A DNA stretch of 64,000 nucleotides, taken from NCBI RefSeq assembly GCF_030378165.1, contig NZ_CP119766.1, positions 3,906,001-3,970,000 on the forward strand. Direction: 5' to 3'. Under the pieces are notes generated by a model. That model saw only the letters and a list, made by a program, of their open reading frames with translations. It searched no databases and was not told where the DNA came from. The number at the start of each line of letters is the position of its first letter. Positions within the stretch are counted from its first letter, which is position 1. The stretch is from Flavobacterium panacagri (GTDB lineage Bacteria; Bacteroidota; Bacteroidia; Flavobacteriales; Flavobacteriaceae). A program made the position numbers and the translations under genes. This document shows positions 20,933 to 41,749 of the stretch, one piece after another.

Positions 20933-20968
20933 TGTCCTATTTTAAGATTCTCAATAAATTAAAATTTG
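20933..20968 (+). promoter_or_regulatory. Late promoter L1 (head genes)
   Basis: TGTCCTATTTTAA at 20933-20945 and a -7-like box AAAATTTG at 20961-20968. First member of a six-copy family with invariant spacing. The ATG of the protease gene is 24 bp after the box. Confidence 0.75.
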
Positions 20969-20991
20969 TAAAGTGCAAAAAGCATTTTACA

Positions 20992-22311
20992 ATGAGTATA
21001 AATAATTTACATTCTCTTCTTAATGGCCGATGGTTCATTCATGAGCCATTTGGTCAATCTCTTTTACCTTCTCTGAATACTATTTTAAAAGGTAATTCTA
21101 TTAAAATAAACAAAGAAGATATAAAACCTGAATCATTTGTAATCCAATTAGGAAAAAGTCCCGTTGTTGCTTCTGCTTTTAGCAATAGTGATAATAATAA
21201 TGATTATGTTTTGGTAATGGATTTAAAAAATCCAATTTACAAATACTCTCAAGAATGTGGACCGCAAGGAACCAAGTCTAAAATGAATATTTTAGAAAGA
21301 TATAGAAACGATCCTTATTGTAAAGGTGTTGTTTTGGATATTGATAGTGGTGGCGGTCAAGTCTCAGGAACTCCAGAATTTTACGATTACATCCGTGAAT
21401 ACAATAAACCAGTAGTTTCATATACTGATGGGTTGATGTGTTCAGCAGCTTATTACATCGGTTCTGCGTCTGATTATTTAGTTGCAAATAAAAGAGCTGA
21501 TCATATTGGAAGTATTGGAACAATGATTTATTTCATTGATTTTACTGGATGGTACGAAAAAGAAGGAGCAAAGGTAATTACTGAATACGCAACAAAATCA
21601 ACAGAAAAAAACAGGGATTTTGAAGAATTGGTAAAAGGTAATTCTGAACCTTATATAAAAAATCAATTGGATCCAATTACCGAAGATTTTATTAATGATA
21701 TCAAGGCAGTAAGATCAAAAGTAAATGAAGAAGTCTTTACTGGAAAAACTTATTCTTCTACAGATGCTCTTTCTGTGGGATTGATAGATGAAATAGGTAC
21801 TCTACAAACGGCAATCGATAAAGTATTCGAGTTAGCCAAAAAAACAAGTAATCAAAATTCAAATACAAATATGTCTAAACAACTTGTAAATGTTCAAGCT
21901 GTTTTAGGTTTAGATGCTCCATTAGCTTCGACTGAAGAAAAAGGAAGCTATTTAAATGCTGAACAGTTGGATGCTTTAGAAAAAGGCTTAGCCGACAAAG
22001 ATGCGGCTAATGCGAAATTACAGACTCAATTAGATGAGGCAAATGCAAACACTGTTCTAAAAGATCAATTACAGGCGTCTAAAGAAACTGTGACTGCAAT
22101 TGAATCATCAATTGATGCAATGTTAACATCAGCAGGACTAGATGTTAATGGAACGTTGACCGAAAAAACTATTGAGTTAAGTGCAAAAGTTATGGAAATG
22201 GGAAATGCTGATGGTTCAAAACCGACAAATGTTAAAGTAGACACAGGAAACTCAGGTGTTTCTACTAAAATTGTTGGTAATATTGATATTTCAGCTGCAA
22301 TGAATAATTAA
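20992..22311 (+). CDS. S49-type capsid maturation protease with C-terminal scaffold
   Basis: 439 aa. Residues about 60-285 form a ClpP/SppA-like (peptidase S49) domain: GVVLDIDSGGGQVSG oxyanion region, catalytic Ser151 in GLMCSAAYYIGSA, and HIGSIGTM. Residues about 290-439 are charged and helical with a probable coiled coil (YLNAEQLDALEKGLADKDAA), the layout of a scaffold fused to the protease. It would cut scaffold and capsid during head maturation. The capsid gene follows after 20 bp. Confidence 0.85.
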   Translation: MSINNLHSLLNGRWFIHEPFGQSLLPSLNTILKGNSIKINKEDIKPESFVIQLGKSPVVASAFSNSDNNNDYVLVMDLKNPIYKYSQECGPQGTKSKMNILERYRNDPYCKGVVLDIDSGGGQVSGTPEFYDYIREYNKPVVSYTDGLMCSAAYYIGSASDYLVANKRADHIGSIGTMIYFIDFTGWYEKEGAKVITEYATKSTEKNRDFEELVKGNSEPYIKNQLDPITEDFINDIKAVRSKVNEEVFTGKTYSSTDALSVGLIDEIGTLQTAIDKVFELAKKTSNQNSNTNMSKQLVNVQAVLGLDAPLASTEEKGSYLNAEQLDALEKGLADKDAANAKLQTQLDEANANTVLKDQLQASKETVTAIESSIDAMLTSAGLDVNGTLTEKTIELSAKVMEMGNADGSKPTNVKVDTGNSGVSTKIVGNIDISAAMNN

Positions 22312-22331
22312 TTTAAAAAAAGTAAATACTT

Positions 22332-23282
22332 ATGTCTATTGTCAAAACAGATTTAGTTGCAGCATTTGGTGCTTATTACATTCCAGAAGGTCAGGATATG
22401 GATAGGCTAAAGAGCGCTTTACGTCAAACTACCGTAACACCAAATACAGCGAAGCCGATTATCTATGATGGGGAAACTTATAGATTTTCTAACGTAATTT
22501 TCCAAGAAATTGTTCAACAGTTTCAGAAAAAGTTTACTCCAAAAGGTGACTTAACTTTTAAACCAAACGAAATTCGTTTGAGAAATATGAAAGTAGATCT
22601 TTCTCTTTTTCCTGATGATGTTAAAGCATCTTGGTTAGGTTTTCTTGGTAGTTTAACAGAACAGGAACGTAAAAACTGGCCAATTGTAAGATACATGATC
22701 GAAAAAGAGGTTATTCCTCAGCTAAAAAGCGATCTTGAAACAAAGGCTTACTTTAAAGGTGTTTATGTTGCTCCAACTGCGGGGACAGCGGGAAGTACGT
22801 CAGGTACAATTGATGGTATCAAAAAATTACTTGATGATGGATTAACGGCAGGAACTATGAAAGCGGTTGCTCTATCTGAGGTACCAACAAACGCTAATCG
22901 ATTTGAAATGATTGAAGAATTTGCTGATGGAATTGATGAATTATTGTTGCAAGTTCCTACTTCGATTTATATGTCTACCAAAAATCTTAGATCTTACCTA
23001 CGTGATAAAAGAAATACGCACGGAACCGATGTAAATTATGAGGCAGGAAAAATCACTGTAGATTTTGCTGACAATCTTAAGTTAGTAGGTTTGCCATCAA
23101 TGGCAGGTTCTGAGTACATGTGGGCAACTCCAGATGATAATTATTTATACTTGAGACGTGTAAACGGAATGTCTGAGCCAAAAGTTGAAGAAGCATTAAG
23201 AGAAGTATTTCTTATGTTAGACTGGTGGGAAGGATTAGGTTTCGGCTACAATGAGCTTGTGTACGTTTATAAACCTGCTTAA
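22332..23282 (+). CDS. Major capsid protein (HK97-fold candidate)
   Basis: 316 aa directly downstream of the protease/scaffold gene, the standard place of the major head protein. It has an N-terminal helical arm, an E-loop/P-domain-like middle, and the end part LYLRRVNGMSEPKVEEALRE as in the capsid proteins of Bacteroidota siphophages. No signal peptide or membrane segment. Confidence 0.75.
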   Translation: MSIVKTDLVAAFGAYYIPEGQDMDRLKSALRQTTVTPNTAKPIIYDGETYRFSNVIFQEIVQQFQKKFTPKGDLTFKPNEIRLRNMKVDLSLFPDDVKASWLGFLGSLTEQERKNWPIVRYMIEKEVIPQLKSDLETKAYFKGVYVAPTAGTAGSTSGTIDGIKKLLDDGLTAGTMKAVALSEVPTNANRFEMIEEFADGIDELLLQVPTSIYMSTKNLRSYLRDKRNTHGTDVNYEAGKITVDFADNLKLVGLPSMAGSEYMWATPDDNYLYLRRVNGMSEPKVEEALREVFLMLDWWEGLGFGYNELVYVYKPA

Positions 23283-23292
23283 TTTTTAGAAG

Positions 23293-23739
23293 ATGACTAA
23301 ACAAACAAAAAAAACACCAGTAGTCGATTCTGATGCTGGTGTTATAACAGAAAATGCAGATGTACAAGTGAATTCTACTCTGGTTGTTGCTTCGAAAACT
23401 TCAGAACCAAATACTTCGACAACTGTAAGCGGCGAAGAAGTTTTACAAGCTAATTTAGAAGGTACAACAGCGGATAATTTTGTAAATCTGGGTAAAACTA
23501 ATGATACAGGTTCTTCGAGTATTATCAATACTGTACAAAATGGTTCAGAGTCGAATGAAACGGTTGAAGTTATTGAATCTGAAATATTCGTCTCAGAAAA
23601 TGGTGATGAATATGAACTTATTGTAAATGAATTCATGTTTATGGGAGATAAGTACTCTAAAGAAGTAGCTTTAAAAGAGCATGTTGATATTTTAGAGCGT
23701 TTGGTATCAATCAAATCATTCATCCTTAAAAAACGTTAA
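23293..23739 (+). CDS. Ser/Thr-rich phage head-associated protein
   Basis: 148 aa, acidic, low complexity in residues 1-95 (runs of S, T, V, N, E), with a short ordered C-terminal part (EYELIVNEFMFMGDKYSKEV). It lies 10 bp after the capsid gene and 3 bp before the next gene. A decoration or head-completion protein is likely from position; no family match. Confidence 0.5.
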   Translation: MTKQTKKTPVVDSDAGVITENADVQVNSTLVVASKTSEPNTSTTVSGEEVLQANLEGTTADNFVNLGKTNDTGSSSIINTVQNGSESNETVEVIESEIFVSENGDEYELIVNEFMFMGDKYSKEVALKEHVDILERLVSIKSFILKKR

Positions 23740-23742
23740 AAA

Positions 23743-24306
23743 ATGGCATTAGATTTAGAAAATATTGGAGGAGAAAGTGCTGAGCCAGTTTCTGGGTTGG
23801 CAGGAATTGTTTACTATGCGCTTCAAAGCGATTTTGATACAATTAATGAACCTAAAAAAATGGATGACCTAGTTCCAGCAAATGTTGCGGGTTCATATAA
23901 AGAGTTGTCAGAAATTGCTACAGCACACGTTTTTAAAACCGGTAAATGTTTTTTTCAAATAGAAACTGTTACAGAAACAGGAACAATTAAAGCAACTCCT
24001 CTTGGAGAAACTGGTAGAAAATTGTATCAAAACGAACTTGTAATTACTGTCGCTGGATCTTCTGCTGAGTTGTTAGGATTTTGTAGATGGATTAAGAATC
24101 AAAAATTAATCATTCTGTTTGAAGAATTTGGTACAGGAAATATTAGACAGCTTGGATTGTCAAGACTTCCTGCATTAGCAAGTGTTGAGCATAACATTGA
24201 AGCAACGGCTGAAGGAAATAATTCTGCCACAATTACATTTACTGATAAGAATTTTGGACCCGCTCCAATATACAAAGGAGCTGTTCAATTAGTACCTGAA
24301 GCATAA
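23743..24306 (+). CDS. Candidate major tail (tube) protein
   Basis: 187 aa, beta-rich. The C-terminal part (LGLSRLPALASVEHNIEATA, then ITFTDKNFGPAPIYKG) has the look of small tail-tube proteins of Bacteroidota siphophages: an immunoglobulin-like finish after a beta-sandwich. It is the last of four tightly packed genes behind late promoter L1, followed by a structured RNA element. Alternative: another head protein. Confidence 0.5.
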   Translation: MALDLENIGGESAEPVSGLAGIVYYALQSDFDTINEPKKMDDLVPANVAGSYKELSEIATAHVFKTGKCFFQIETVTETGTIKATPLGETGRKLYQNELVITVAGSSAELLGFCRWIKNQKLIILFEEFGTGNIRQLGLSRLPALASVEHNIEATAEGNNSATITFTDKNFGPAPIYKGAVQLVPEA

Positions 24307-24313
24307 ATTTTCC

Positions 24314-24449
24314 TTGGAGGACGGAAATAAAATTGTCCTCCAACATAAAATACTTCCTACGGTAATTTATAAATATAGCAATAGCCACAGCGTTGGAGGA
24401 CATTAAGTCTTCTTGCTGTGGCTATTGCTTTTAAATTATCGTAGGAAGT
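24314..24449 (+). ncRNA. Structured RNA or DNA element with nested stems and loop complementarity
   Basis: Three nested inverted repeats. TTGGAGGAC (24314-24322) pairs with GTCCTCCAA (24335-24343). An 18-bp stem with one G-T pair joins 24352-24369 to 24432-24449. Inside it a perfect 15-bp stem joins 24377-24391 (AGCAATAGCCACAGC) to 24415-24429. The 23-nt apical loop contains GTTGGAGGAC (24392-24401), complementary over 10 nt to 24335-24344, so the 5' flank can pair either with its local partner or with the loop (pseudoknot or switch). There is no U-tract, so it is not an ordinary terminator. It lies between the tail-tube candidate and dam. Confidence 0.65.
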
Positions 24450-24451
24450 TA

Positions 24452-24459
24452 CAAATATA
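24452..24459 (-). promoter_or_regulatory. Minus-strand -7 box reading into the structured element
   Basis: Minus strand TATATTTG matches TAnnTTTG exactly and lies directly beside the large stem, with TTG 23 bp upstream. A leftward transcript would start near 24446 and comprise the complement of the whole fold. Confidence 0.4.
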
Positions 24460-24488
24460 GGCATCATCAATCAAAAATCGAACAAAAA

Positions 24489-25316
24489 ATGAATTCAAAA
24501 ATTAAAGCTTTAACTGACTGTAAGCCAGTAAAAACAATTAAAAAGACTCCAATTTCTTATTACGGTGGTAAACAAGCTATGCTTAAATTTATACTTCCAT
24601 TGATTCCAAAACACCGCGTTTATGTGGAACCTTTCTTTGGAGGTGGTGCTGTTTTCTGGGCTAAGGAACAATCGGAGGTCGAAATCGTGAACGATTTAAA
24701 TGGTAATGTCACAAATTTTTATCAGCAACTAAAGACTAATTTTAAAGAATTGAAAGGTTTAATTATGGCAACGCCATACAGTAGAGAGGTTTATAAAAAT
24801 GCTATGGTCATTTATGAAACGCCTTATATATTTAATCCGGTTCATCGTGCCTGGTCTTTTTGGGTTGGAACAGTTCAAGGCTTTTCCAATAAAATCGGTT
24901 CTTGGCGCAGTGCTACAAAAAGAAGCAAGGAAAGTACTTTAAATTACAACAAAAAAGAGGCGTTTACTGAAGAATTAAGTAAAAGACTAGACTTTGTGCA
25001 AATTGAATGTAAAGATGCTGTAGAATTGATTATAAAGCAGGATTCCGAAGATACATTTTTTTATATCGATCCTCCTTATGTTGGAGCAAATCAAGGTCAT
25101 TATGGTGGTTATACTCAAGAGCATTTTGCATTGCTTCTTTCTGCTCTTAGTAAAATAAAAGGAAAGTTTCTCTTGTCAAGTTATCCGAACGAGTTGTTAA
25201 GTGAATACCGATCACAATTTAAGTGGTTTAGCAATGATAAAAATATGGTTTTGTCGGCAAGTCGAGAAAGTAATAAAAGAAAAACTGAAGCTTTGACAGC
25301 AAACTATCCTATTTGA
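24489..25316 (+). CDS. DNA adenine N6-methyltransferase (Dam/D12 class)
   Basis: 275 aa. SAM-binding motif near the start (PISYYGGKQAMLKFILPLIP, then VEPFFGGGAVFW) and catalytic DPPY in FFYIDPPYVGANQG mark a D12-class (alpha) adenine methylase. The YGG.HYGGYTQEHFALLL stretch after DPPY is typical. It would methylate phage or host DNA, probably at GATC-like sites, against restriction; specificity cannot be read off. It is preceded by the structured element and followed by a small gene in the same unit. Confidence 0.9.
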   Translation: MNSKIKALTDCKPVKTIKKTPISYYGGKQAMLKFILPLIPKHRVYVEPFFGGGAVFWAKEQSEVEIVNDLNGNVTNFYQQLKTNFKELKGLIMATPYSREVYKNAMVIYETPYIFNPVHRAWSFWVGTVQGFSNKIGSWRSATKRSKESTLNYNKKEAFTEELSKRLDFVQIECKDAVELIIKQDSEDTFFYIDPPYVGANQGHYGGYTQEHFALLLSALSKIKGKFLLSSYPNELLSEYRSQFKWFSNDKNMVLSASRESNKRKTEALTANYPI

Positions 25317-25361
25317 TTTTGACTCTCTGGAATACTTTTGATTTAAATAAATTAAAATCTT

Positions 25362-25685
25362 ATGCTTGACTATATTCAATCGATCACAGAATTTCTAAAA
25401 GACAATTTTAATCCAAGCAATCCAGCATCTGCAAATGTGAAGTTAAATACTGATCAACTATTGAATTTTATTTTTAGAACTTTTCCAGTAGACTGTATTT
25501 CTGATTATGAGCTGAATGATATTTTATTATCACTGAATTACAAACGTTTCACTTATGTCGTTGAATCGTATAAGGAAATTGGAAAAAAGAAAGATCGCAG
25601 AATTGAAGTAAGCAAAAGTCTTGAAGTGGGCTGGTGTATGACAACTCCTTTTGATTTACGAACAGAGGAAATGGAAAAAGATTAA
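25362..25685 (+). CDS. Small phage protein, unknown
   Basis: 107 aa. Soluble, with a possible winged-helix pattern (LNTDQLLNFIFRTFPVDCIS, then DILLSLNYKRFTYVVE), resembling small phage proteins that follow methylases. No firm family. Its stop lies in the terminator that ends this unit. Confidence 0.55.
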   Translation: MLDYIQSITEFLKDNFNPSNPASANVKLNTDQLLNFIFRTFPVDCISDYELNDILLSLNYKRFTYVVESYKEIGKKKDRRIEVSKSLEVGWCMTTPFDLRTEEMEKD

Positions 25686-25710
25686 AGTCACTCAATGAGT
25701 GGCTTTTTTT
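25685..25710 (+). terminator. Intrinsic terminator before late promoter L2
   Basis: AAGTCACTC and AGTGGCTT arms with a short loop, followed by seven T. The next base pair begins late promoter L2, so terminator and promoter are fused back to back. Confidence 0.8.
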
Positions 25711-25711
25711 A

Positions 25712-25747
25712 TGTCCTATTATTAAAATTTCACACTTTCCATATTTG
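25712..25747 (+). promoter_or_regulatory. Late promoter L2 (terminase unit)
   Basis: TGTCCTATTATTA at 25712-25724 and CATATTTG at 25740-25747. Same 36-bp geometry as the other five. ATG 21 bp downstream. Confidence 0.78.
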
Positions 25748-25767
25748 TAAAATCAAATAAAGAAATT

Positions 25768-25989
25768 ATGAAAGATTTTTTGCATCTGTTTTTTGGGGTT
25801 TTAGGCATCTCAGTATTTATACTTGTAGAAGTGTTGTTTGTGAATTGGTTTTTAGATTTCGATTGGATTACAGCAGGTTTAAGTGAATGTATAAATTTTG
25901 TTCTTTCTATCAGTATACTGAATTTTTGTATTCTCATTTTTTACAGTTATCTAGACACTTTATATGGATTTAGTAAAAAACTGGTTTAG
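25768..25989 (+). CDS. Small two-TM membrane protein
   Basis: 73 aa, with two hydrophobic helices (about 5-28 and 40-62). First gene behind late promoter L2. It overlaps the following gene by 26 bp. Family not recognised; a holin-like role cannot be excluded, but a better holin candidate lies at 34605. Confidence 0.5.
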   Translation: MKDFLHLFFGVLGISVFILVEVLFVNWFLDFDWITAGLSECINFVLSISILNFCILIFYSYLDTLYGFSKKLV

Positions 25990-26695: not shown

Positions 26696-27269
26696 AAAAA
26701 GAGAAATGCTTATTAAACGTGGTGACACTACGTTAGATAAGATATTAGCGCATTATATCAATCCTGAACACTTTCCATTAAGTGAAACTAATGCCGCTAT
26801 TTTATTGCGTTTGAATGAAGTTTTTGCACTTCGTTTAAATCATTTTTCTACTCAGCAGATTCTTAACAAATTCGTTCTCGAAAAGGGATTGTCTCAGGCT
26901 CAAGTTTATGCTGATATTCGAAATTCAGAAAAGCTTTTTGGAAGTGTTTTGAAAGCAGATGCTGAAGGATCAAGAGCAATTTGGTTAGAATATACACGTG
27001 ATTATTTAAAAAGATGTAAGCAAAAAGGAGATCGTAATAATGAAGTAAAAGCGTTAAAATTGCTTGCCGACTACGGTGGACTTGCTAACGAAGAAAACCC
27101 AAATTTCAATCCAGAGAAATATGAAAACATGGAACTCCATATTAATGTGGACAAGCGCGTTCAGAATAAACTTTTGGAAATGCTATCTGGAGGTTCTGTT
27201 GATTTAAATAACTTGGATGTTACTGATATTGATTTTGAAGATGTAACAAACACTGAAACCAATGATTAG
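26685..27269 (+). CDS. Terminase small subunit (candidate)
   Basis: 194 aa directly before TerL and overlapping it by 8 bp. The N-terminal region (about 40-95) includes a helix-turn-helix-like NHFSTQQILNKFVLEKGLSQ and AQVYADIRNSEKLFG, as in small terminases of Bacteroidota phages; the C-terminus is acidic and disordered. TerS binds the packaging site and recruits TerL. Confidence 0.7.
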   Translation: MASKKREMLIKRGDTTLDKILAHYINPEHFPLSETNAAILLRLNEVFALRLNHFSTQQILNKFVLEKGLSQAQVYADIRNSEKLFGSVLKADAEGSRAIWLEYTRDYLKRCKQKGDRNNEVKALKLLADYGGLANEENPNFNPEKYENMELHINVDKRVQNKLLEMLSGGSVDLNNLDVTDIDFEDVTNTETND

Positions 27270-28758
27270 AAGTAAAAAGTTTGTAAGTCTGACTATTCCT
27301 CAGTTTGCTTGCGTTATGGCTCCTCAAAAAAATAAATATATTGAAATGGGGCGAGGTGGTGGTAAATCTACAATATTTGGTTATCATATGCGTGAATTAG
27401 TCCGTCAAATGCCAAAGGCATCTTTTGCTTTGCCATGTTCAACATATTCACAAGCATTAAGTAGAACTTTGCCGTCTGCAATTGAGGGACTTGAGATGTT
27501 TAATTTATATAACGGAATTGATTATGTAATAGGTAGATCTGGAAAAAAACTAGGCTTTGAATTGCCTTATCAACCACCCAGTCAATGGGATAATATTATA
27601 CACTTTCCAAATGGATCTATATTTCAATTAGTATCGTTAGACAACCCTAATTCAGGCCGTGGTCTTAATTCATCTGCTGAGGCAGGTGATGAAGCGGCTT
27701 TGTTTGATCCGGAAAAACTTTTTACTAATGTAAAAACCACTAATAGATCTCAAAAAGAGATTTATAAAAAAGCTCCATTGTTAGGGTCTGAGTTTTACAT
27801 TTCTTCAACCCCGATCAATAAAAAAGGTAAATGGTTTACTGATATGGAGGAAGTTGCAAAGAAGAATCCAAAAGATTATGCTTTTATAAAAGCTTCAGCA
27901 CGTTCTAATCCTTATTTAAATCCCGATTGGTTTAAAAAAATGCGTGATCAATCAGTATCTGAGGTTCTTTATAATGCTGAAATTTTAAATATTAGACCAC
28001 AGGAAATTGTAGACGGTTTTTATGGGAATCTAAACCAAAGAAAGCATTACTATACGGATTACAATAATAGTTATTTAGAAACTATTGGAGTACTCGCAAG
28101 ATCAGAACACTTCAATTCATTACAAGATAATGATGTTCGAGTAAACGAACCATTAATTGTGTCAGTAGATTTTGGTGTGTTTAATGGTTGTGTTGTGTCT
28201 CAGTTACAGGATGATGAGTATCGCGTATTAAAGTCATTCTTTGTGAAATCTCCAAAGCTTTTAGATGATTTATTTATTGAACAGTTTATTCCGTACTATC
28301 GACCTCACCAAGAAAAGTTTGTTTATTTATATGGTGGTCATGATGGAAACAATAGACTGCCCAACTCTGAACGCACTTACTTCCAACAGATATCAGATGT
28401 ATTGACCGCTCATGGCTGGACTGTTTATATTCTTACCAAAGGCGCAGCGCCAACCCATACAGATAAATACTTGCTAATTAATGCAATGCTTAAAGAGCAT
28501 CAAACCAGATTACCTAAGATTCGCATCAATGAACATAACAACCCTGATCTTATTATAGCTCTTGAGCGCACCGAAGCAAGGGAGTCACTCAAAGGAGGTA
28601 TAGAAAAGGTAAAGAAAGATGAACGAAACCCTCTATTCCCACAGCAACATGCTCCACACTTAACGGATGCATTTGACGTACCGCTTATGACTATGTTCAA
28701 CGCGATCTTCAAAGGACAAAGCTCTCTATTGTCCGAAAGCCGTATTCAATCGCTGTAG
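27262..28758 (+). CDS. Terminase large subunit
   Basis: 498 aa packaging motor. ATPase domain: Walker A GRGGGKST at residues 30-37, Walker B with D143-E144 (SAEAGDEAALF). Nuclease domain begins near VSVDFGVFNG (about 300), with the acidic Asp expected there. The last 100 codons (28441-28740) have about 43% GC by hand count against about 34% for 27481-27780, which suggests recombination in the nuclease part. The gene is the last of the L2 unit; a 200-bp gap to promoter L3 follows. Confidence 0.85.
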   Translation: MIRSKKFVSLTIPQFACVMAPQKNKYIEMGRGGGKSTIFGYHMRELVRQMPKASFALPCSTYSQALSRTLPSAIEGLEMFNLYNGIDYVIGRSGKKLGFELPYQPPSQWDNIIHFPNGSIFQLVSLDNPNSGRGLNSSAEAGDEAALFDPEKLFTNVKTTNRSQKEIYKKAPLLGSEFYISSTPINKKGKWFTDMEEVAKKNPKDYAFIKASARSNPYLNPDWFKKMRDQSVSEVLYNAEILNIRPQEIVDGFYGNLNQRKHYYTDYNNSYLETIGVLARSEHFNSLQDNDVRVNEPLIVSVDFGVFNGCVVSQLQDDEYRVLKSFFVKSPKLLDDLFIEQFIPYYRPHQEKFVYLYGGHDGNNRLPNSERTYFQQISDVLTAHGWTVYILTKGAAPTHTDKYLLINAMLKEHQTRLPKIRINEHNNPDLIIALERTEARESLKGGIEKVKKDERNPLFPQQHAPHLTDAFDVPLMTMFNAIFKGQSSLLSESRIQSL

Positions 28759-28959
28759 CCTGATATCACCCTATTTTCATATATCCTGATTTTCGGCAGA
28801 TGGAAAGTGTGAAACGCCATAGGGACAGGCGTGCTTTATCGTTGGAAAATATAAAAAACTAATTGTTTTTTGAACTCAAGAACCTGATTGTCAGTTTTGT
28901 AATATTTTAAAAACTGGAAAAAGTAGTATAAATAGAACACAAATTAGCTATTTAATTGC

Positions 28960-28995
28960 TGTCCTATTTTAAAAATGCTCTTTAAATGAATTTAG
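28960..28995 (+). promoter_or_regulatory. Late promoter L3 (portal unit)
   Basis: TGTCCTATTTTAA at 28960-28972 and GAATTTAG at 28988-28995. The ATG of the next gene starts only 5 bp after the box, so the mRNA should be leaderless or nearly so. Confidence 0.75.
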
Positions 28996-28999
28996 CGGT

Positions 29000-29344
29000 A
29001 TGCAAAAGGAAGCAATTTCATTAAAAGAGGGATTAGAAATCTTGAACCAAAAAGATTCGAAAGGACGGTTAATTCCTTTCGATATCACTTACAGAACGTT
29101 TAATGCAACATCAAAAAAAGGAGGCAAACTAAAAAGGTATTTAGGAGCCAAACTTCTACTTGAAAGAAATCCAAATAAGATTCAAAAAGACACAATTGAA
29201 AATATTTTGATTCCTGTAAAGGAGACAAAAAATGCTCATCATTTTAAAAACAGAACAAGGAATATTGAACTATCTGACTCTTCAGTTGTAACTATTCGAA
29301 TCGATTTTATAATTAGTATCAACAATAAAGACATTATTTACTAA
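29000..29344 (+). CDS. Small phage protein at the start of the portal unit
   Basis: 114 aa, basic, beta-rich (YLGAKLLLERNP; VVTIRIDFIISINNKD). Unrecognised. The ATG at 29000 is at or next to the expected transcription start of L3. The stop overlaps the portal ATG by one base. Confidence 0.55.
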   Translation: MQKEAISLKEGLEILNQKDSKGRLIPFDITYRTFNATSKKGGKLKRYLGAKLLLERNPNKIQKDTIENILIPVKETKNAHHFKNRTRNIELSDSSVVTIRIDFIISINNKDIIY

Positions 29345-31670: not shown

Positions 31671-31706
31671 TGTCCTATTTTAAAAAACTGATATAATCCA
31701 ATTTTG
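31671..31706 (+). promoter_or_regulatory. Late promoter L4 (adhesion and lysis unit)
   Basis: TGTCCTATTTTAA at 31671-31683 and CAATTTTG at 31699-31706. As at L3, the next ATG (31711) is 5 bp after the box. Confidence 0.78.
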
Positions 31707-31710
31707 CTTC

Positions 31711-33048
31711 ATGGGTATTAAAGCAGCAAACAATATTTTTCCGCATGATCCAGATGATAACTGGAGATTAAAATTAGACAAGGGAGGCTATGAAGGTTCC
31801 GCGCTTGATCTTTTCAATTTGATCAATACCGTTGTGGCTCCAGATGCCATTATTGTTAAAGGGGAAATTGTAAAAACTCTTAACGAATTGTCTATTGAAG
31901 AAGGGGCATTTACTTGTAGAATAAATCAGCAGATTGTAACAAATAGTCAACCGTATAGTACTACTATAGAACCTGCTCAAGAAGGATATCATAGAATTGA
32001 TATCTTAGTTTTTACTCAAAATGGTACTATTGTCAAAATAAAGGGTTCGGAAGATCTTTCATCAGCGCAAGAACCTGATACGCCAGATAATACAATTAAA
32101 ATTTCTTTTACTTCAATTTTTGGGTTAGTTATTGGTGATCCTGAAATCCCAGTTGTAGGAGATGCTTATGTTTCAAAGGCTTCTAAAAGTTTTATAAGAA
32201 TGTTCCAAACTGGAGATGTAGATACTTATCCAGTAGATGACAGAACCTACCTTAAGTTTGAAACAGGTATGTTGTCATTAAAATCCTTGAACATCTCTTT
32301 ATCTTCTAATATTTATCATGGAAAAGATTTCATTTTTAAGAATGGAACGACTGGAAATGTAACATTGTATCACAATTTAGGTTCCGGGAACTTTAGATTT
32401 AATATTCCAAATGGCCAAAACTTAATTTTAAAAGCAGAAGAGAGCGTTCATTTTGTAATGCGTGCAATTAATTCAACAGGGAATGGAGGTATTTTAGATT
32501 ATGTAGGTATTACTCCAGTTGAAATTGATATTACAGGAAAAGAAGACACGGCCAATAAATCCAATTTTGTAACGGACGCAGATAGTTCAATAAAATTCCC
32601 AGTTTGGTCGTCGATCACACTTTGGATTAAAGAGAAATTGAATGCTGCATTAGCATCTAAAACGAACCCAGAGTCTACAGATGTTTTGATTATTGGCGAT
32701 AATTCGGATAGTGGGAAGACTAAGAAAATTGCTTTTTCAAATTTTATATCGTGGATACAAAGCTTTTTTCAAGCTAAAGACAATCAGATTGAAGTGTCTG
32801 CAAGCAGTAACGTTTTAAATGCCTGGCACGGACAAACAGTATTGTTTACAGCTAATTGCACAATAACTGTTCCGTCAAGTTTGGTTAATGCGTTGGATTT
32901 TAGTTGGAGAACAATGGCAGGTGTAAGTGTAACGTGGGCAATTACTTCTCCTTTTGTTTGGGAATCTCCACCAAGCAACACACCTGAAAAAACAGTAGGG
33001 CATTTTATGCGCCGAGGATCAACGAACACGGTTATTTTAGATGTATAG
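31711..33048 (+). CDS. Phage tail fibre-like or surface protein
   Basis: 445 aa. The N-terminal part (HDPDDNWRLKLDKGGYEGSA) and repeated beta-rich segments suggest a virion fibre. The C-terminal region contains SDSGKTKKIAFSNFISWI and a WHGQTVLFTANCTITVPSSL segment like those of tail-fibre stalks. The LamG-domain gene follows 2 bp later, which supports an adhesion role. Confidence 0.55.
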   Translation: MGIKAANNIFPHDPDDNWRLKLDKGGYEGSALDLFNLINTVVAPDAIIVKGEIVKTLNELSIEEGAFTCRINQQIVTNSQPYSTTIEPAQEGYHRIDILVFTQNGTIVKIKGSEDLSSAQEPDTPDNTIKISFTSIFGLVIGDPEIPVVGDAYVSKASKSFIRMFQTGDVDTYPVDDRTYLKFETGMLSLKSLNISLSSNIYHGKDFIFKNGTTGNVTLYHNLGSGNFRFNIPNGQNLILKAEESVHFVMRAINSTGNGGILDYVGITPVEIDITGKEDTANKSNFVTDADSSIKFPVWSSITLWIKEKLNAALASKTNPESTDVLIIGDNSDSGKTKKIAFSNFISWIQSFFQAKDNQIEVSASSNVLNAWHGQTVLFTANCTITVPSSLVNALDFSWRTMAGVSVTWAITSPFVWESPPSNTPEKTVGHFMRRGSTNTVILDV

Positions 33049-33050
33049 TT

Positions 33051-33782
33051 ATGGGGTTAAAGAAATATTATTTTGCTAAAAAAAAGCAGGTTAAAGTAAA
33101 TGACTTGAATATTAGTTTAGTTGCTTACTATAAGTTAGATTCCGATGCGATTGATTTAGTTAACGGTGTAAATGGTACATCGACAAATGTGTCATACATA
33201 AATAGTGGCAAAATTGGAAATTCAGCAACTTTTAATGGTTCTAATAGTTTAATTATCATACCTAACAGTGATAATTTTAATTTCTCTAATTCTACAAATG
33301 ATCTGCCTTTTTCGATTTCTTTTTGGATTTATAATATGGGTAATAATGCTTCTGCATTGATATATAGAAGAGGAGCAGGAGCTACGAACGAACAGTATGC
33401 AATACAAAAACTACCAAACGGGCAGCTCGTAATGAATTTGTTTACAAATACTTCGAATCTTATACAAGGTGCGACAAGTGGCATTGCAGACTTAAATACA
33501 TGGGTTCATTACTTAGTTACTTATGATGGGACTGCTAATGTAAGCGGTATTAAGTGGTATAAAAATGGTGTTTTGGCATCCGCTGCTGGATCAATGACAG
33601 GAACTTATACTAAAATGCCTATTGCTGTTCAGAACACTGTTATAGGACGAATAAGCTGGACAGCTACAGGTTTTTTAGACGCGAGGCTTGATGAATTTGC
33701 AATATGGAAAAATAGGGCATTGACAAGTTCAGAGGCTTTGTATTTATACAATTCAGGAACAGGTAGAACTTTTCCTTTTTAA
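33051..33782 (+). CDS. LamG-like jellyroll protein, candidate receptor-binding protein
   Basis: 243 aa. Residues about 20-240 form a concanavalin-A/LamG-type fold: LVAYYKLDSDAIDLVNG, FSISFWIYN, NTWVHYLVTYDG and RLDEFAIWKNRALTSSEALY are the standard strands of this family. There is no signal peptide; it lies among virion genes. It most probably binds a glycan on the host surface. Confidence 0.75.
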   Translation: MGLKKYYFAKKKQVKVNDLNISLVAYYKLDSDAIDLVNGVNGTSTNVSYINSGKIGNSATFNGSNSLIIIPNSDNFNFSNSTNDLPFSISFWIYNMGNNASALIYRRGAGATNEQYAIQKLPNGQLVMNLFTNTSNLIQGATSGIADLNTWVHYLVTYDGTANVSGIKWYKNGVLASAAGSMTGTYTKMPIAVQNTVIGRISWTATGFLDARLDEFAIWKNRALTSSEALYLYNSGTGRTFPF

Positions 33783-33811
33783 CAAAAAATAATCATTAAA
33801 TACCACATAGA

Positions 33812-34596: not shown

Positions 34597-34604
34597 TTCA
34601 TAAA

Positions 34605-35048
34605 ATGAAAACATTTTTACTTTACCTAGTTACCGCAACTTGTTTGTTTTTTACTCCAATAGTTGGGTTATTAATAGCGGTGGGAGCAGCCATAGTTTTG
34701 GATACCGCTTTCGGAATTTACAGAAGTATAAAAGTCAAAGGATGGAAATTTGTAACAAGCCGACGTTTAAGTGAAATCATTTCTAAAATGCTTTTATATG
34801 AAATGTGTATAATCTGCCTTTACATAATAGACTTTTTTGCACTTACTGAATTCTTTCAAAAATGGTTCTCGATATCATTTTTCGCTACTAAAATATGTGC
34901 TATCGTTTTGATTTTTATTGAAGGGGTGTCCATAAAAGAAAATTTTGAAAAAGCTACAGGAAAAGATGTTTGGGCATTAATAAAAAAGGCTCTTGGACGA
35001 GCAAACGAAATAAAAGATAGTATTACTGATTTAAAAAACACCGATTAA
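34605..35048 (+). CDS. Phage holin
   Basis: 147 aa with three to four transmembrane helices (about 3-35, 62-85, 90-118) and a charged C-terminus (KALGRANEIKDSITDLKNTD). VGAAIVLDTAFGIYRSIKVK is typical of the phage_holin_4-like family of Bacteroidota. It lies 2 bp before the amidase gene. It would open the inner membrane for the endolysin. Confidence 0.75.
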   Translation: MKTFLLYLVTATCLFFTPIVGLLIAVGAAIVLDTAFGIYRSIKVKGWKFVTSRRLSEIISKMLLYEMCIICLYIIDFFALTEFFQKWFSISFFATKICAIVLIFIEGVSIKENFEKATGKDVWALIKKALGRANEIKDSITDLKNTD

Positions 35049-35049
35049 A

Positions 35050-35598
35050 ATGACAGCATTTATCTCAGCGGGGCATAATCCCAAAGGAATTAAAGTTGAT
35101 CCAGGAGCGGTAGCAAATGGATTGCGTGAAGCCGACTTAACTGTCGAATTTCGAAATTTAGTAGTGGCCGAACTGCTTAAAAGAAAAGTAAAAGTTATAA
35201 CAGACAAAGATGACGAACGTCTTGGTGACTATTTGAAAAGAATTAAAACTGGAAGCGGATCTGTTGTTTTAGAATTTCACTTTGATGCGGCGCTTTCGCC
35301 AACAGCTACAGGTACTACTTCTTTATATGGAAATGATGCAGATCGCTTAGACATAGCCTTTTCTAAAGAACTTGCAGAAGCAACCTCTAAAATTTTAAAA
35401 ATAAAAAATAGAGGAGCGTTATCAGAGAGTCAAAGCCATAGAGGAAGTTTGGGGTTAATGCGAAAGGAAGGTATTGTTTCCCTGCTTGAAGTATGTTTTA
35501 TTTCCAATCCATCGGATATAAAAGCATACAATGAAAACAAAAAAGAATTGGCGGTTAAAATTGCTGAGATCGTTGAACATTATGAAAATTTGATCTGA
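35050..35598 (+). CDS. Endolysin, N-acetylmuramoyl-L-alanine amidase (Amidase_3)
   Basis: 182 aa zinc amidase. Zinc ligands H9 (ISAGHN), E27 (GLREADL) and H77 (LEFHFDA), catalytic E147 (LLEVCFISNP). No signal peptide, so it depends on the holin for export. It cuts the lactyl-amide bond of peptidoglycan. It is the middle gene of a holin-amidase-spanin cassette; the stop overlaps the next start by one base. Confidence 0.9.
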   Translation: MTAFISAGHNPKGIKVDPGAVANGLREADLTVEFRNLVVAELLKRKVKVITDKDDERLGDYLKRIKTGSGSVVLEFHFDAALSPTATGTTSLYGNDADRLDIAFSKELAEATSKILKIKNRGALSESQSHRGSLGLMRKEGIVSLLEVCFISNPSDIKAYNENKKELAVKIAEIVEHYENLI

Positions 35599-37580: not shown

Positions 37581-37608
37581 AAAACCTCTCTATTTGAGAG
37601 GTTTTTTT
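37581..37608 (+). terminator. Intrinsic terminator before late promoter L5
   Basis: AACCTCTC, loop TATTT, GAGAGGTT and then seven T; the promoter element begins 2 bp later. Confidence 0.85.
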
Positions 37609-37609
37609 A

Positions 37610-37645
37610 TGTCCTATTTTAACGTATGCGCTCCCTTTAATTTAG
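37610..37645 (+). promoter_or_regulatory. Late promoter L5 (tape measure unit)
   Basis: TGTCCTATTTTAA at 37610-37622 and TAATTTAG at 37638-37645. ATG 16 bp downstream. Confidence 0.78.
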
Positions 37646-37660
37646 CTTAAAAATAGGTTT

Positions 37661-38044
37661 ATGACGGGCATAATTGATGTATTGAAACAAGAACGTGAAA
37701 TCACTTCAAAAGCAGTAAAAAAGCTTAGAGCTTCAGTAAAGAATGAAGTTTCAAAATCAGGAGAAACGAGATCAGGAAATGCGGTTAAAATTAGTAATGC
37801 TGGTAGCAGATTTAAAAATAATCGTCTTCAAAGGCTTACTATGTCTGCACCGTACTACATTTTTATGCAACATCATGGTTTTGAGGGCAAGAAGTCAAAT
37901 GGAATAAATCAACGTTTAACTGCTACAAATGTCTTCTCAAAAGCAATCCAATCATCAAACATAATGGAAACTCTTGCGAATGAGATTTCAGATGTCAGAT
38001 TAGAACAGGTTTCATCAATAATAAACCTTCAGATAAATGGCTAG
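37661..38044 (+). CDS. Small tail protein, HK97 gp10-like candidate
   Basis: 127 aa, basic. The order helix (DVLKQEREITSKAVKKLRAS), disordered basic linker, APYYIFMQHHGFEGKKSN, closing helix resembles HK97 gp10-like tail-completion proteins, whose core also has a 'YA.yvE.G' type turn. It overlaps the tape measure start by 8 bp. Confidence 0.5.
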   Translation: MTGIIDVLKQEREITSKAVKKLRASVKNEVSKSGETRSGNAVKISNAGSRFKNNRLQRLTMSAPYYIFMQHHGFEGKKSNGINQRLTATNVFSKAIQSSNIMETLANEISDVRLEQVSSIINLQING

Positions 38045-41000
38045 AAGAGAAATTCCAAGAGAAATATCGATCTATATTAATGATCGTCAAGTGGTAAATT
38101 CATTTGCAGGAATTAGCCGTGCTATAACTCAGACTAGGAGTGAAATAAATAATCTAAATAGAAATTCAGAAACTTATAATGAAGATTTACGTAGGCTAGG
38201 AGGAGAACTGGATCAATTAACTGAACGTCAATCAGTGTTTAGACAGGAGCTTAGAGATTCTTCAGAGGCTATGAATGACTCTGAAGGAAGTTTAAAAAAA
38301 TTTAGAGACGGTCTTTTATCTGGAGATTTTGAGAGTGCATTAGAAGGTTTAAAAGGGATCAGATCAGAAATTACTAATTTAGTTAAAACTACTTTACAAT
38401 TTATTGCTACACCGATTGGTGCCGCTATTGCTGTATTAAGCGGTATAGTTGTCGGAACTAAAAAACTATTTGAGTTTAATCAGGAACTTGAAAAGTCAAA
38501 TAATATACTCCGTTCGTTTGGTGTAAATTCAGCAGAGGAACTTACAAAAGTAAGATCAGAAATTCTGGCTACAGCAGAAACATTCGATAAAGAGTTCTCA
38601 GAAATTGCTAGTAAGGCAAATTCGCTTAGTAAAACTTATGGGATATCAATGTCAGAAGCTAATCGACTTATTTCGGAAGGTTTGGCAAATGGCGGATCGC
38701 TAAATGATGAATTTCTAGATAGCGTTGGAGAATATGATGAGTTCTTTAATAAAGCCGGATATTCTGCTTCTGAATTCATAGACGTCATTAATAAGGGATA
38801 CGATGTTGGAATTTATTCAGATAAATTACCCGATGCTTTAAAAGAGGCCGATTTAGCTTTAAAAGAACAAACCAAATCAACAAGAGATGCATTAGAAAAT
38901 GCATTTGGAATTACTTTTTCGGATAATATTTTAGCACGTGTTGCAGCAGGTAAAACAACAACCAAAGAAGCTCTAGAAGAAATTGCTGCTGAATCCCAGA
39001 AAACTCAGTTGTCGCAACAACAACAGGCACAATTAACTGCTGACATTTTTAAAGGAGCTGGGGAAGATGCTGGCGGTGCCTTGAAAATACTACAAACGAT
39101 TTCTGATACTACAAAAAAGGAAATAACTGAAGCGACTAAAGCTCAGTTAGAACTTTTAGCTGCTAATGAAAAACTTAATAAAGCACAATCTGAGTTATTC
39201 GAAATAGAAGGTTTTGGTGCTATGTGGGATCAAGTTAAAGCAAATGCAATTGATACTCTTGCAGATATAATTTTATATGTTTCAGATTTAAAAAAAGACA
39301 TTCAGCCATTAATTGACATTGTTTCATTTGTACTGGTAAATGCTTTTATTCAATTGAAGTTTATAGTAGTTACTGTTTTTTCTACATTAGGAGTTGCTTT
39401 GAAAATTTTCTTTGATTACGTGAAATATGTTTTTGATTTCCTTAAAGCTATTATAACCGGAGATTTTAAAGGAGCTATAAAATTGACAGGAGATTATTTT
39501 GTTAATCTTGGTAAAACAATTTTGAATTTTTTCAATAAGATCAGAAATACCATAATTGATACTATTAAAAGTACAATTGCAAATGTAGCTCCTTTGTTAG
39601 AGGCAATGGGAGTTGATGTTGAGAAGTTACAAAAAAGACTTGATTCATTAAAATCAAAAGAAGTTGTTTTAAAAACTACCACAGAAACCAAAAAAACGAC
39701 AAAAACGGCTGAAGAACTTGCTGAAGAAGAGCGTTTATTAAAAGAAGCTATTGCAAAGCAACAAGCAATTCGCGATAAAGAAAGGGAAAAGGAAGAAGAA
39801 AAACGTCGAAAATTTTTAGAAAAAAAACGAGCAGAAGAAGCAAAGGCAGCCAAAGAAGAGCTGGATAGATTACTTGCTCTTGCTAAGGCGAAGTCTGACT
39901 TATATAAGGCGGAGCTAAATTTCTTTATTGCTACCCAAAGAAGCAAATTAGATTCTACAAAAAAACTGACTCCTGAAATTATAAAGGATGAAACAGATCG
40001 TTTAGAAAGAATTAAAGATAGAAAACTAACTGCATTAGCAGAGGAAAGGCTTGCCGATATAGAAAAAGCGAAAGCCTCGGCAAAATCTGCTGAAGAATTA
40101 GTACTACTAAAACAGATCATAGATTATAATTATGAAACAGAAAGGCAAAACTTAGAAATGTCATTTTTGGATTCAACAACTAATCTAAAAAAGCAATACG
40201 AGGAAGAACAGAAAGTTTTAAAAGCCGAGCAGTTAGCTCTTGATAATGAATTAGCATTGGCTGAAGCGGCAAATAAATATGAAGAAGATAGAATTAAGCA
40301 GGATCAGGATTTTCAAACTCAATTGGCGCGTTACAAGAAACTTCTTGAAGACAAAAAAATTACAGAAGAACAGTATATCAGATTTTCAGATGCACTAAAA
40401 GCGAAACAGGATGAAGTTGATCGTCAAAGAGAGTTAGGGAAAATAAGTGCAAGTTTAAGTGCTTTTGGACAATTAGCCGGTGCTTTGACAGAATTGTTTG
40501 GACAATCAAAAGCGTTAGCAATTACTCAGGCTGGTATAAATGGAGCGTTGGCAGTAACTTCTATTTTATCTGCTCCTTCAATGGGAAATCCGATTTTAGA
40601 TGCAGCGGTAAAAGCAGTTCAGATTGCAGCAGCAGTTCTTACAACTACTGCTCAAATTAAAAATATAAGCAAAGCAAAAGCACCAAAAACGCCTAAATTT
40701 TTCTATGGCGGTTTTACTGGAGCAAATCCGCATTTAGGATATGACGAATTTGGCCCTATGACAGGTGTCGTTCATGATAATGAATATGTCATTCCAAAGG
40801 CAATGACTCAAAGCCCGAGGTATGCTAATACAATTGCTTGGTTAGAAAATGAGCGAACAGGAAGAAATACAAAAAAGTTTGCAGATGGAGGGTTTACTTC
40901 TTCGAATGTGATACCACCAACAGTAATGAGTGAAAATGATTCAGAAATGAAAGTTCTTCTTAAAGCTGTACTATTTAGATTGGAAAATCCTGTTCCTTCT

Positions 41001-41093
41001 AATGTCATTATTGGTTATGAGGAAGCAAAGGGTATTCAGGATTTGAATGAAGAAAGATCCGAGGCTGATCGAAATGGAATCGTTAATGAATAA
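38037..41093 (+). CDS. Tail tape measure protein
   Basis: 1018 aa, the longest late gene. N-terminal coiled coil (about 15-80), hydrophobic segments (about 118-145 and 430-460), a long Lys/Glu/Ala-rich helical rod (about 560-790; EEERLLKEAIAKQQAIRDKE), then a second hydrophobic stretch (about 800-865) and a small C-terminal domain. This composition is that of a tape measure protein, which sets tail length and enters the cell on infection. About 1000 residues predict a tail near 150 nm if the usual 1.5 A per residue holds. Confidence 0.9.
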   Translation: MARREIPREISIYINDRQVVNSFAGISRAITQTRSEINNLNRNSETYNEDLRRLGGELDQLTERQSVFRQELRDSSEAMNDSEGSLKKFRDGLLSGDFESALEGLKGIRSEITNLVKTTLQFIATPIGAAIAVLSGIVVGTKKLFEFNQELEKSNNILRSFGVNSAEELTKVRSEILATAETFDKEFSEIASKANSLSKTYGISMSEANRLISEGLANGGSLNDEFLDSVGEYDEFFNKAGYSASEFIDVINKGYDVGIYSDKLPDALKEADLALKEQTKSTRDALENAFGITFSDNILARVAAGKTTTKEALEEIAAESQKTQLSQQQQAQLTADIFKGAGEDAGGALKILQTISDTTKKEITEATKAQLELLAANEKLNKAQSELFEIEGFGAMWDQVKANAIDTLADIILYVSDLKKDIQPLIDIVSFVLVNAFIQLKFIVVTVFSTLGVALKIFFDYVKYVFDFLKAIITGDFKGAIKLTGDYFVNLGKTILNFFNKIRNTIIDTIKSTIANVAPLLEAMGVDVEKLQKRLDSLKSKEVVLKTTTETKKTTKTAEELAEEERLLKEAIAKQQAIRDKEREKEEEKRRKFLEKKRAEEAKAAKEELDRLLALAKAKSDLYKAELNFFIATQRSKLDSTKKLTPEIIKDETDRLERIKDRKLTALAEERLADIEKAKASAKSAEELVLLKQIIDYNYETERQNLEMSFLDSTTNLKKQYEEEQKVLKAEQLALDNELALAEAANKYEEDRIKQDQDFQTQLARYKKLLEDKKITEEQYIRFSDALKAKQDEVDRQRELGKISASLSAFGQLAGALTELFGQSKALAITQAGINGALAVTSILSAPSMGNPILDAAVKAVQIAAAVLTTTAQIKNISKAKAPKTPKFFYGGFTGANPHLGYDEFGPMTGVVHDNEYVIPKAMTQSPRYANTIAWLENERTGRNTKKFADGGFTSSNVIPPTVMSENDSEMKVLLKAVLFRLENPVPSNVIIGYEEAKGIQDLNEERSEADRNGIVNE

Positions 41094-41100
41094 TTTTTTG

Positions 41101-41108
41101 TAGGTTTG
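41101..41108 (+). promoter_or_regulatory. Host-type promoter -7 box for the DUF4468 gene
   Basis: TAGGTTTG matches TAnnTTTG exactly, 28 bp before the ATG. There is no TGTCCTATT at the late-promoter distance, so this gene is wired for host RNA polymerase. Confidence 0.6.
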
Positions 41109-41135
41109 TTAGTATAAAACATAAATGCCCTAATT

Positions 41136-41663
41136 ATGAAAAGAATCTTCTTATTTATTCTGCTATCGACAATCAATGGATTTTGTCAAAAAAATGTTGA
41201 ATTAACTGCATCTGGAATTACTCCAGTTGTAACCGAAGTTCAAAACGCTACTGCAGAACAATTATATTTAAAAACTTTTGATTGGATTCAGAAAAATTAT
41301 AAGCGTCCGAATGAGGTAATAAAAGCTGATAAAACGAATGAAATGATTAGAATAGAAGGATTCTCAAAAGAATTTTTCTTTCAAAAGTCTTTAGGCACTA
41401 ATTACTATGGCGTTTTGTATACTATAGAATTTGAATTTAAAGAGGGGAGATACAGATTTTCATTTACGCCTGAAGAAATTACGTCTAAAGGTCAAAAGAT
41501 GGCTTTTCTATCAAGCCCAGCCGACTTTTTTAAGAAAGATGGATCCGCAAAAAGTATTTATAAATCTTCGATCGATTCTTTTACAGCAGCTGTCCAGGAA
41601 TTATACATTTCACATTATAATTTCGTCTCAGGTAAAACTGATCAATCTTCCAGCAACTGGTAA
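41136..41663 (+). CDS. Secreted DUF4468 (TBP-like fold) protein, probable lysogenic-conversion gene
   Basis: 175 aa. Residues 1-18 form a signal peptide (MKRIFLFILLSTINGFC). The mature part matches DUF4468: TAEQLYLKTFDWIQKNYKRP, a beta-hairpin around MIRIEGFSKEFF and YTIEFEFKEGRYRFSFTPEE. Such proteins are abundant in Bacteroidota genomes as small periplasmic proteins, not as virion parts. It interrupts the tail genes, has its own host promoter and is followed by a terminator: the classic structure of a moron expressed in the lysogen. Confidence 0.8.
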   Translation: MKRIFLFILLSTINGFCQKNVELTASGITPVVTEVQNATAEQLYLKTFDWIQKNYKRPNEVIKADKTNEMIRIEGFSKEFFFQKSLGTNYYGVLYTIEFEFKEGRYRFSFTPEEITSKGQKMAFLSSPADFFKKDGSAKSIYKSSIDSFTAAVQELYISHYNFVSGKTDQSSSNW

Positions 41664-41684
41664 TACTTAGATACTTAAAATTGT

Positions 41685-41713
41685 AAACCGCTATTTACTA
41701 GCGGTTTTTTTTA
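41685..41713 (+). terminator. Intrinsic terminator before late promoter L6
   Basis: AAACCGCTA, loop TTTAC, TAGCGGTTT and a T-run; promoter L6 begins within 2 bp. Confidence 0.85.
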
Positions 41714-41749
41714 TGTCCTATTATGAAGCCTTCCTCATATGTAATTTCG
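41714..41749 (+). promoter_or_regulatory. Late promoter L6 (tail tip unit)
   Basis: TGTCCTATTATGA at 41714-41726 and TAATTTCG at 41742-41749. ATG at 41769, 20 bp after the box. Confidence 0.78.

Follow-up and report, generated by a model that had tools for sequence, protein, structure and literature searches.

We describe six copies of a nine-nucleotide motif, TGTCCTATT, in a 64-kb stretch of Flavobacterium panacagri DNA (contig NZ_CP119766.1, positions 3,906,001 to 3,970,000; hereafter the window, in whose coordinates all positions are given). Each copy is followed at an unvarying distance by a promoter-like box of the Bacteroidota type, and all six lie within a 38.3-kb prophage (8349-46663). 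Judging from this arrangement, we regard the six sites with high confidence as late promoters of the prophage. The explanation that we favour as a whole, with a probability of roughly 0.6, is that these promoters are turned on by a phage-coded activator, most likely the product of a small gene at 19920 that precedes the late block. The sites, and the genes that they would serve, are as follows.

20933 to 20968, + strand: predicted late promoter 1, TGTCCTATT followed by N19 and box AAAATTTG; predicted +1 at 20973; head block, from the S49-type protease gene (20992-22311) onward.
25712 to 25747, + strand: predicted late promoter 2, box CATATTTG; predicted +1 at 25752; block of genes 25964, 26685 and large terminase (27262-28758).
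28960 to 28995, + strand: predicted late promoter 3, box GAATTTAG; predicted +1 at 29000, the A of an ATG (leaderless); portal block.
31671 to 31706, + strand: predicted late promoter 4, box CAATTTTG; predicted +1 at 31711, the A of an ATG (leaderless).
31711 to 33048, 33051 to 33782, 34605 to 35048 and 35050 to 35598, + strand: promoter 4 block, in that order a variable gene and the genes for a lectin-like protein, a holin and an amidase.
37610 to 37645, + strand: predicted late promoter 5, box TAATTTAG; predicted +1 at 37650; gene 37661 and the tape measure gene (38037-41093).
41714 to 41749, + strand: predicted late promoter 6, box TAATTTCG; predicted +1 at 41754; block 41769-45324, assigned to the tail tip solely from its position.

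Among these assignments, the large terminase matches phrog_2 and the tape measure phrog_3336, the portal is assigned by synteny with the gene order of Polaribacter phage Leef_1, and family matches in the block 41769-45324 are weak or absent.

A scan of the sequence bore out the preliminary description of this stretch in its observations: the six copies of TGTCCTATT begin at 20933, 25712, 28960, 31671, 37610 and 41714, all on the + strand (with none on the - strand of the window), and every site start falls in a gap between open reading frames (ORFs) taken as genes. Across the six sites TGTCCTATT, T11, A13, A30, T33, T34 and G36 are invariant and columns 10-13 read WTDA; the boxes quoted earlier were all recovered, each nAnnTTnG box starting exactly 28 nucleotides from the first T (6/6) and the last ending at 41749. 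In 100 shuffles of the window the motif averaged 0.47 copies and reached four at most, none attaining six, and copies with one mismatch were not enriched (21 against 19.1 expected), from which we conclude that the motif is strict. Since nAnnTTnG occupies 0.73% of + strand positions between 20001 and 46000, the chance of 6/6 at one spacing is about 1e-13, or 6e-12 allowing for 40 spacings; together with the shuffles, this rejects a chance 9-mer. When the complete 5.98-Mb genome was interrogated with the composite of TGTCCTATT and a box at +28, six matches were retrieved, all in the late phage region of the window and none elsewhere in the host genome, and the reversed-pattern control gave zero. 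The bare 9-mer occurs 31 times genome-wide against 59 for its control; it is thus the composite, and not the 9-mer alone, that is specific in this genome. An Rfam element was also considered and rejected, a scan of window positions 8000-56000 having returned tRNA only.

Flavobacterium psychrophilum has its sigma-A box, TAnnTTTG, at -12 to -5 and the SM5 motif TAnnTTGY at the same place (PMC9723704). These coordinates, applied to the window, set +1 at 40 nucleotides after the first T of TGTCCTATT and place TGTCCTATT itself at -40 to -32, the position of the -33 element, as had been surmised. A TTG was found near -33 at none of the six sites in any of three registers checked, the triplets there being ATT, TTT, TTA or TAT. 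The boxes are degenerate at their first base, also as previously described, with T in only 2/6; nAnnTTTG is seen in 3/6 and the full TAnnTTTG in 0/6. We infer promoter activity and start sites from this geometry, by which two of the six promoters (28960 and 31671) are predicted to produce leaderless mRNAs. The predicted +1 falls on an ATG in 34 of 85 unique sites from 17 records and in 23 of 68 TGTCCTTT sites with a box, and most of the promoter 3 relatives displayed have ATG 4 nucleotides past the box. Leaderless mRNAs make up 5.5% of the F. psychrophilum mRNAs with a mapped start, according to PMC9723704.

Terminator-like hairpins directly precede three of the six sites: a hairpin scan placed two, at 25684-25706 and 41685-41707, just upstream of promoters 2 and 6, and inspection by eye added a third before 37610 (CCTCTC-TATTT-GAGAGG followed by a T-run), which the scan had not listed. 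The spacer of site 2 (25730-25739) carries extra conserved letters, TCACACTTTC in the window group and TTGACAATT in G409, G410 and G123 (individual sources being denoted here by our own handles), which suggests a second control on the terminase block.

Related phages have the composite at corresponding gene borders, among them a site upstream of the protease homologue (the equivalent of promoter 1). In all 12 phage contigs with a terminase at least 67% identical, TGTCCTATT is present on the same strand as the terminase gene within the stretch examined, mostly at recognisably equivalent places; one of the 12, L069, has two extra copies on the opposite strand. In 17 records, among them the window, each of the 95 late-strand copies is followed by a box at exactly +28 when the box is defined as nAnnTT followed by NG, GC or TA (76/95 for strict nAnnTTnG), and no other offset from 20 to 37 yields more than three boxes among them. 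The 95 include the six of the window and duplicate contigs (same or near-identical among our sources are L240/G407, G411/G412 and G403/G406), and comprise 85 unique 36-mers. Opposite-strand copies have a box in 2/6, one of the two being in the inverted tail module of G408 (L208, near 8004, - strand), where the predicted promoter has been inverted along with the module and its box kept at +28. Repeated exact intergenic 9-mers could serve as packaging, recombination or RNA-level elements; but a -7-type box at +28 in every late-strand copy, the placement of the sites just upstream of genes, and the coincidence of ATG with the predicted +1 at 34 of the 85 unique sites render a role other than promoter extremely unlikely.

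A search of IMG/VR with the composite pattern retrieved at least 118 loci (at least 120 stretches, some being pieces of one contig). Among the matches listed, homologues of the late genes of this phage accompanied 33/33 loci with two or more composite sites and 19/85 with one. Of 397 genomes from the host family, 21 contain the composite, with more than one site only in this genome (six) and in G123 (four, on one strand within 10.3 kb); the remaining 19 have one each, and a control pattern gave one match in each of 18 genomes. A host regulon is rejected by these mostly single matches and by the confinement of the composite to the six prophage sites in this genome. The preliminary description had proposed a dedicated phage late code. 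That reading is supported, with the amendment that the code is family-wide and not private to this phage, and has letters specific to lineages: it is common to many temperate flavobacterial phages (Helgolandviridae-like), with variants in Duneviridae.

Two features of individual relatives deserve mention. At the site upstream of the 37661-type gene in L212, L214, L215, L217, L223, L226 and L228 the box is TAATTTGC, TAACTTGC or TAAATTGC, forms that fit SM5 (TAnnTTGY) and not TAnnTTTG and that are kept across these relatives. Separately, L085 and L094, both from metagenome 3300020045, show late promoters in opposing orientations and two similar gene starts of the site 4 type; assembly or amplification chimeras are a more likely source than an invertible receptor-gene cassette.

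Further from the window the letters change while the geometry is retained. In ten contigs with terminases 52-55% identical, TGTCCTATT is absent from the stretches examined (0/10), and k-mer searches of this group found nothing because the letters differ. The four that we followed (G403-G406) have other letters at the same distance and mostly the same gene borders, TGTCCTTTT in G404 and G405 and TGTAATTTT, TGTAATTTC, TGTCATTTT or TGTCATTTA in G403 and G406, and a code-free status for the group was rejected on these variants. With the box loosened for variant classes to nAnn[TCA]T followed by NG, GC or TA, TGTCCTTTT-type sites number five in Leef, five in Ingeline, six on the late strand of G404 and seven in G405, and three of five in a Microcystis phage have such a box. 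Phage laban has five copies of TGTCACAA, all on the late strand with the box at 28, and 6H has four of TGTCTTAAA, all on the late strand with the box at 27, 27, 28 and 27. The variants at kept geometry are thus TGTCCTTTT, TGTCCTTTC, TGT[A/C]ATTT and TGTCACAA, with TGTCTTAAA at 27-28 in 6H. Seven further prophages, which came from a search with the 19920 protein instead of the motif, all have TGTCC-type sites at +28, TGTCCTTTT in six and mostly TGTCCTTTC in G318; in that search 9 of 397 host-family genomes matched, namely these seven, the present genome and G123. The motif-class expressions are loose, producing scattered off-strand matches in G411, G412, L241, L247, G100, G309, G273 and G285; the M-class expression has one + strand match in the window, and the off-strand match in G408 is the real inverted module.

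The Microcystis phage (L263; MZ570427, Mae-Yong924-2) has Bacteroidota-type -7 boxes at its TGTCCTTTT-type sites, together with homologous regulators. It may in truth infect a member of the Bacteroidota that accompanies the cyanobacterium, and not the cyanobacterium itself.

A distance that stays fixed while the letters change would be expected of a dedicated, co-evolving reader, and the retention of that distance in distant relatives points to a reading protein made by the virus; on this sequence evidence the reader is very probably phage-coded. That part of the preliminary description is supported; as to the kind of factor, a DNA-binding-like protein of the late module is more likely than the sigma-like factor that it also suggested. 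A phage-coded or host alternative sigma factor recognising the whole 36-bp element would suit a single asymmetric, oriented element at -35 with fixed spacing. Even so, Pfam scans of the 45 window ORFs taken as genes revealed no sigma-factor domain, the host carries no composite outside the phage, the motif letters vary by phage lineage, and the boxes still resemble the F. psychrophilum sigma-A or SM5 consensus, all of which makes this very unlikely.

Under the mechanism that we favour, host sigma-A would help to recognise the degenerate box nAnnTTnG at -12 to -5, while TGTCCTATT(TTAAA), at -40 to -32 (to about -27), would stand in for the absent host -33 TTG. A phage-coded activator would bind TGTCCTATT(TTAAA) and recruit or reshape the host polymerase, whereupon all late blocks would fire together; the activator would most likely be the basic 154-residue protein encoded at 19920-20384, just before the late block. 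Apart from genes of structural appearance, the near-universal ones are listed here with their occurrence in 18 records.

10000 to 10365, - strand: putative helix-turn-helix (HTH)-like repressor gene, assigned by position and sequence (16/18).
10494 to 10787, + strand: small early regulator-like gene (17/18).
10814 to 11398, + strand: early LuxR/GerE-type regulator, 194 residues (17/18).
19920 to 20384, + strand: candidate late activator, 154 residues, just before the late block (16/18).
20461 to 20931, + strand: conserved gene, 156 residues, ending 2 nucleotides before promoter 1 (17/18).
45338 to 46555, - strand: tyrosine integrase, adjoining tRNA-Arg (16/18).

Of these, 20461 was rejected as motif reader, its product being probably structural.

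The LuxR-type protein at 10814-11398 is an obvious candidate for a class II activator acting over -35, as GerE does at sporulation promoters. Its HTH matches GerE, DegU and NarL, and the site cores of NarL and GerE resemble CCTAT; it is also the only transcription-factor domain that Pfam scans found in the 45 ORFs. All five of the named relatives that were tested have the gene (E <= 1.6e-21), as do 33 of 40 sources; the seven misses are partial loci, and G402 has no more than an 86-residue HTH fragment. Structure matches cover essentially residues 112-194, the HTH, and not the N-terminal part; the HTH also matches phrog_3282 'sigma factor', through residues 129-193.

The motif does not, however, follow this gene. 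Tree tests used 21 of the 40 sources, those having an A or T motif and the needed genes (11 with TGTCCTATT, 10 with TGTCCTTT[T/C]); set aside were G402, G403, G406, G411, G414, laban, 6H, Ingeline, the Microcystis phage, G096 and loci L240-L256. On the LuxR tree the motif label switches three times, against two switches each on the protease and 22332 trees and one each on those of 19920, 20461, 23743 and terL. A single clade of TGTCCTTT phages on the LuxR tree was rejected by the approximately unbiased test (p 5.5e-5), which was run after a discordance between Leef and G415 had been noticed. With near relatives set aside (terL at least 65% identical), the nearest neighbour shares the motif in 11/21 phages for LuxR, 6/21 for its HTH (last 66 residues), 20/21 for 19920 and 21/21 for terL. 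Leef (TGTCCTTTT) and G415 (TGTCCTATT) have LuxR HTHs 83% identical and 19920 proteins 29% identical, and the LuxR recognition helices of laban and 6H, whose motifs differ, are near-identical by eye. These failures of LuxR imply a reader that seems to travel with the late module; we therefore disfavour the early LuxR-type protein as the reader, a role that we consider clearly unlikely, and it may act earlier in the cascade.

Within the late module, 19920 is on balance the best candidate from the sequence comparisons. The family is basic (isoelectric point 8.4-9.8 in 31 of 32 rows, the exception being a truncated G411 copy), and its structure was modelled with a predicted local distance difference test score of 87; in our own reading, the model may contain a ribbon-helix-helix-like N-terminus and an HTH-like C-terminal helix pair. 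Its best protein relative is in Flavobacterium sp. 9. The last helix varies by class, reading YRDFKRKK or close to it in TGTCCTTTT Helgolandviridae-like phages and Y[RK]xxxR in TGTCCTATT phages. A YMEYQRK form is confined to G403 and G406, in which position 4 of the motif is frequently A; as a single event, this makes a link between the helix and position 4 only suggestive. No Mor or C family is named, at sequence level, among 25 of 30 weak Pfam families for 88 members of the 19920 family.

Several observations weigh against the explanation favoured here. The window protein has no match in Pfam, NCBIfam or PHROG, and a PDB fold search gave weak matches only, none significant; in BFVD only Leef_1 was significant, and three phage late-transcription proteins appeared at E 4.6-5.8, values meaningless alone. 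By the tree test 19920 is indistinguishable from its neighbours in the late module, several late genes fitting the motif label equally well. In G123, G412, G413 and G415 a TGTCC site precedes a small ORF and 19920, and there is none at that place in the window group; the homologues in Ingeline and 6H are marginal. The box definition was loosened after the data had been seen.

The reader might alternatively be another late-linked phage protein or a pair, such as LuxR with 19920, or a subunit of the terminase that has a further function. The equal fit of several late genes to the motif label is compatible with this, as is the near-universal presence of both regulators. Against it, the 19920 homologue of the Microcystis phage adjoins a helicase gene, apart from the structural genes. 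Since the LuxR-type HTH was the only transcription-factor domain detected by Pfam, and 19920 alone looked DNA-binding, in our judgement, among near-universal late-linked genes, we view such a solution as unlikely.

Extending the activator role of 19920 beyond the window, we tentatively propose, at close to even odds, that this family without described relatives could switch on late transcription across a large radiation of phages of Bacteroidota. The protein would replace -33 recognition at the 28-nucleotide geometry with a code (TGTCCTATT, TGTCCTTTT, TGTCCTTTC, TGT[A/C]ATTT, TGTCACAA) that drifts with the C-terminal helix, and transcription starting on ATG would yield leaderless head and tail mRNAs.

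The prophage that carries the six sites is delimited by two further features.

8349 to 8367, no strand assigned: left att core, a 19-bp direct repeat of the tRNA-Arg end.
46645 to 46663, no strand assigned: right att core, the same 19-bp repeat, in tRNA-Arg (46649-46723, - strand).

The early region also encodes a primase, and the late block an S49-type protease, terminase, lectin-like protein, holin, amidase and tape measure. Leef_1 (Helgolandviridae) is the closest named phage in our collection, with terL 49% identical over 97%; the order protease-capsid-terL-portal-tail is alike, and the LuxR gene and a 19920 homologue are present. By these homologous genes in Leef order, the prophage belongs to the Helgolandviridae-like temperate flavobacterial phages.

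Two noncoding elements were noted in passing. Just 3' of the terminase gene, a conserved element (28769-28853) contains blocks TTTCATAT, GGAAAGTG and CATAGGGACAGGCG; one pattern for it matches 14 of 43 sources, and 13 rows were aligned. The deposited records of Leef_1 and Ingeline_1 end just past the terminase gene, that of Leef_1 inside an element of this type, so that it may be a cos or packaging site. Upstream of 19920, at 19660-19850, GTGGAAC-type direct and inverted repeats are clustered, different repeated words occupying that place in other phages (e.g. gttctaac in G403); they are possibly a replication or packaging signal.

With this code, late operons and start sites can be predicted for a wide range of flavobacterial phages and prophages. 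It also supplies a specific candidate activator, 19920, with paired natural variants of motif and protein. It casts doubt on the LuxR gene of these phages as a direct late switch, the data saying only that reading of the late motif is an unlikely role for it. It might further serve as an orthogonal expression system for Bacteroidota, in which promoters are unlike those of Escherichia coli.

Among described systems, the box of the sites resembles that of the Bacteroidota sigma-A promoter in form and, by inference, in position, and in some relatives there are sites whose TAATTTGC-type boxes fit SM5 (both motifs from PMC9723704). They differ from the sigma-A promoter in the degenerate first box base, the full TAnnTTTG at 0/6 and a 9-mer in place of the -33 TTG. 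PMC8776804 reads the LuxR proteins of Helgolandviridae and Duneviridae as quorum-sensing regulators; the window prophage has the same early regulator gene, but its LuxR does not track the late motif and structure matches cover the HTH only. The word 'promoter' is absent from the main text of that paper. Among the literature matches listed, from a search with preprints and most subscription journals outside it, we found no description of late promoters of flavobacterial or other Bacteroidota phages, nor of this promoter form, in agreement with the earlier statement that no described promoter of this form was known.

In phage Mu (PMC4461284), activator C turns on the late blocks lys, I, P and mom together, from promoters with non-consensus -10 and -35 elements and a C site that overlaps or lies upstream of -35. 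The control proposed here is alike in placing several late blocks under one phage activator; the C sites differ among the four Mu promoters (PMC4461284), whereas in the window the 9-mer is invariant and its spacing constant. Also unlike Mu, the candidate 19920 has no Pfam match and the host promoter is of the Bacteroidota type. In the middle promoters of phage T4 a MotA box replaces the -35 element, in conjunction with AsiA, and the host -10 is kept. The prophage sites similarly set a phage motif in place of -35 and retain the host downstream box, but on a different host promoter type and in the service of late structural genes. By analogy, and with membership of neither family shown, the prophage system would work in the manner of Mu C or T4 MotA.

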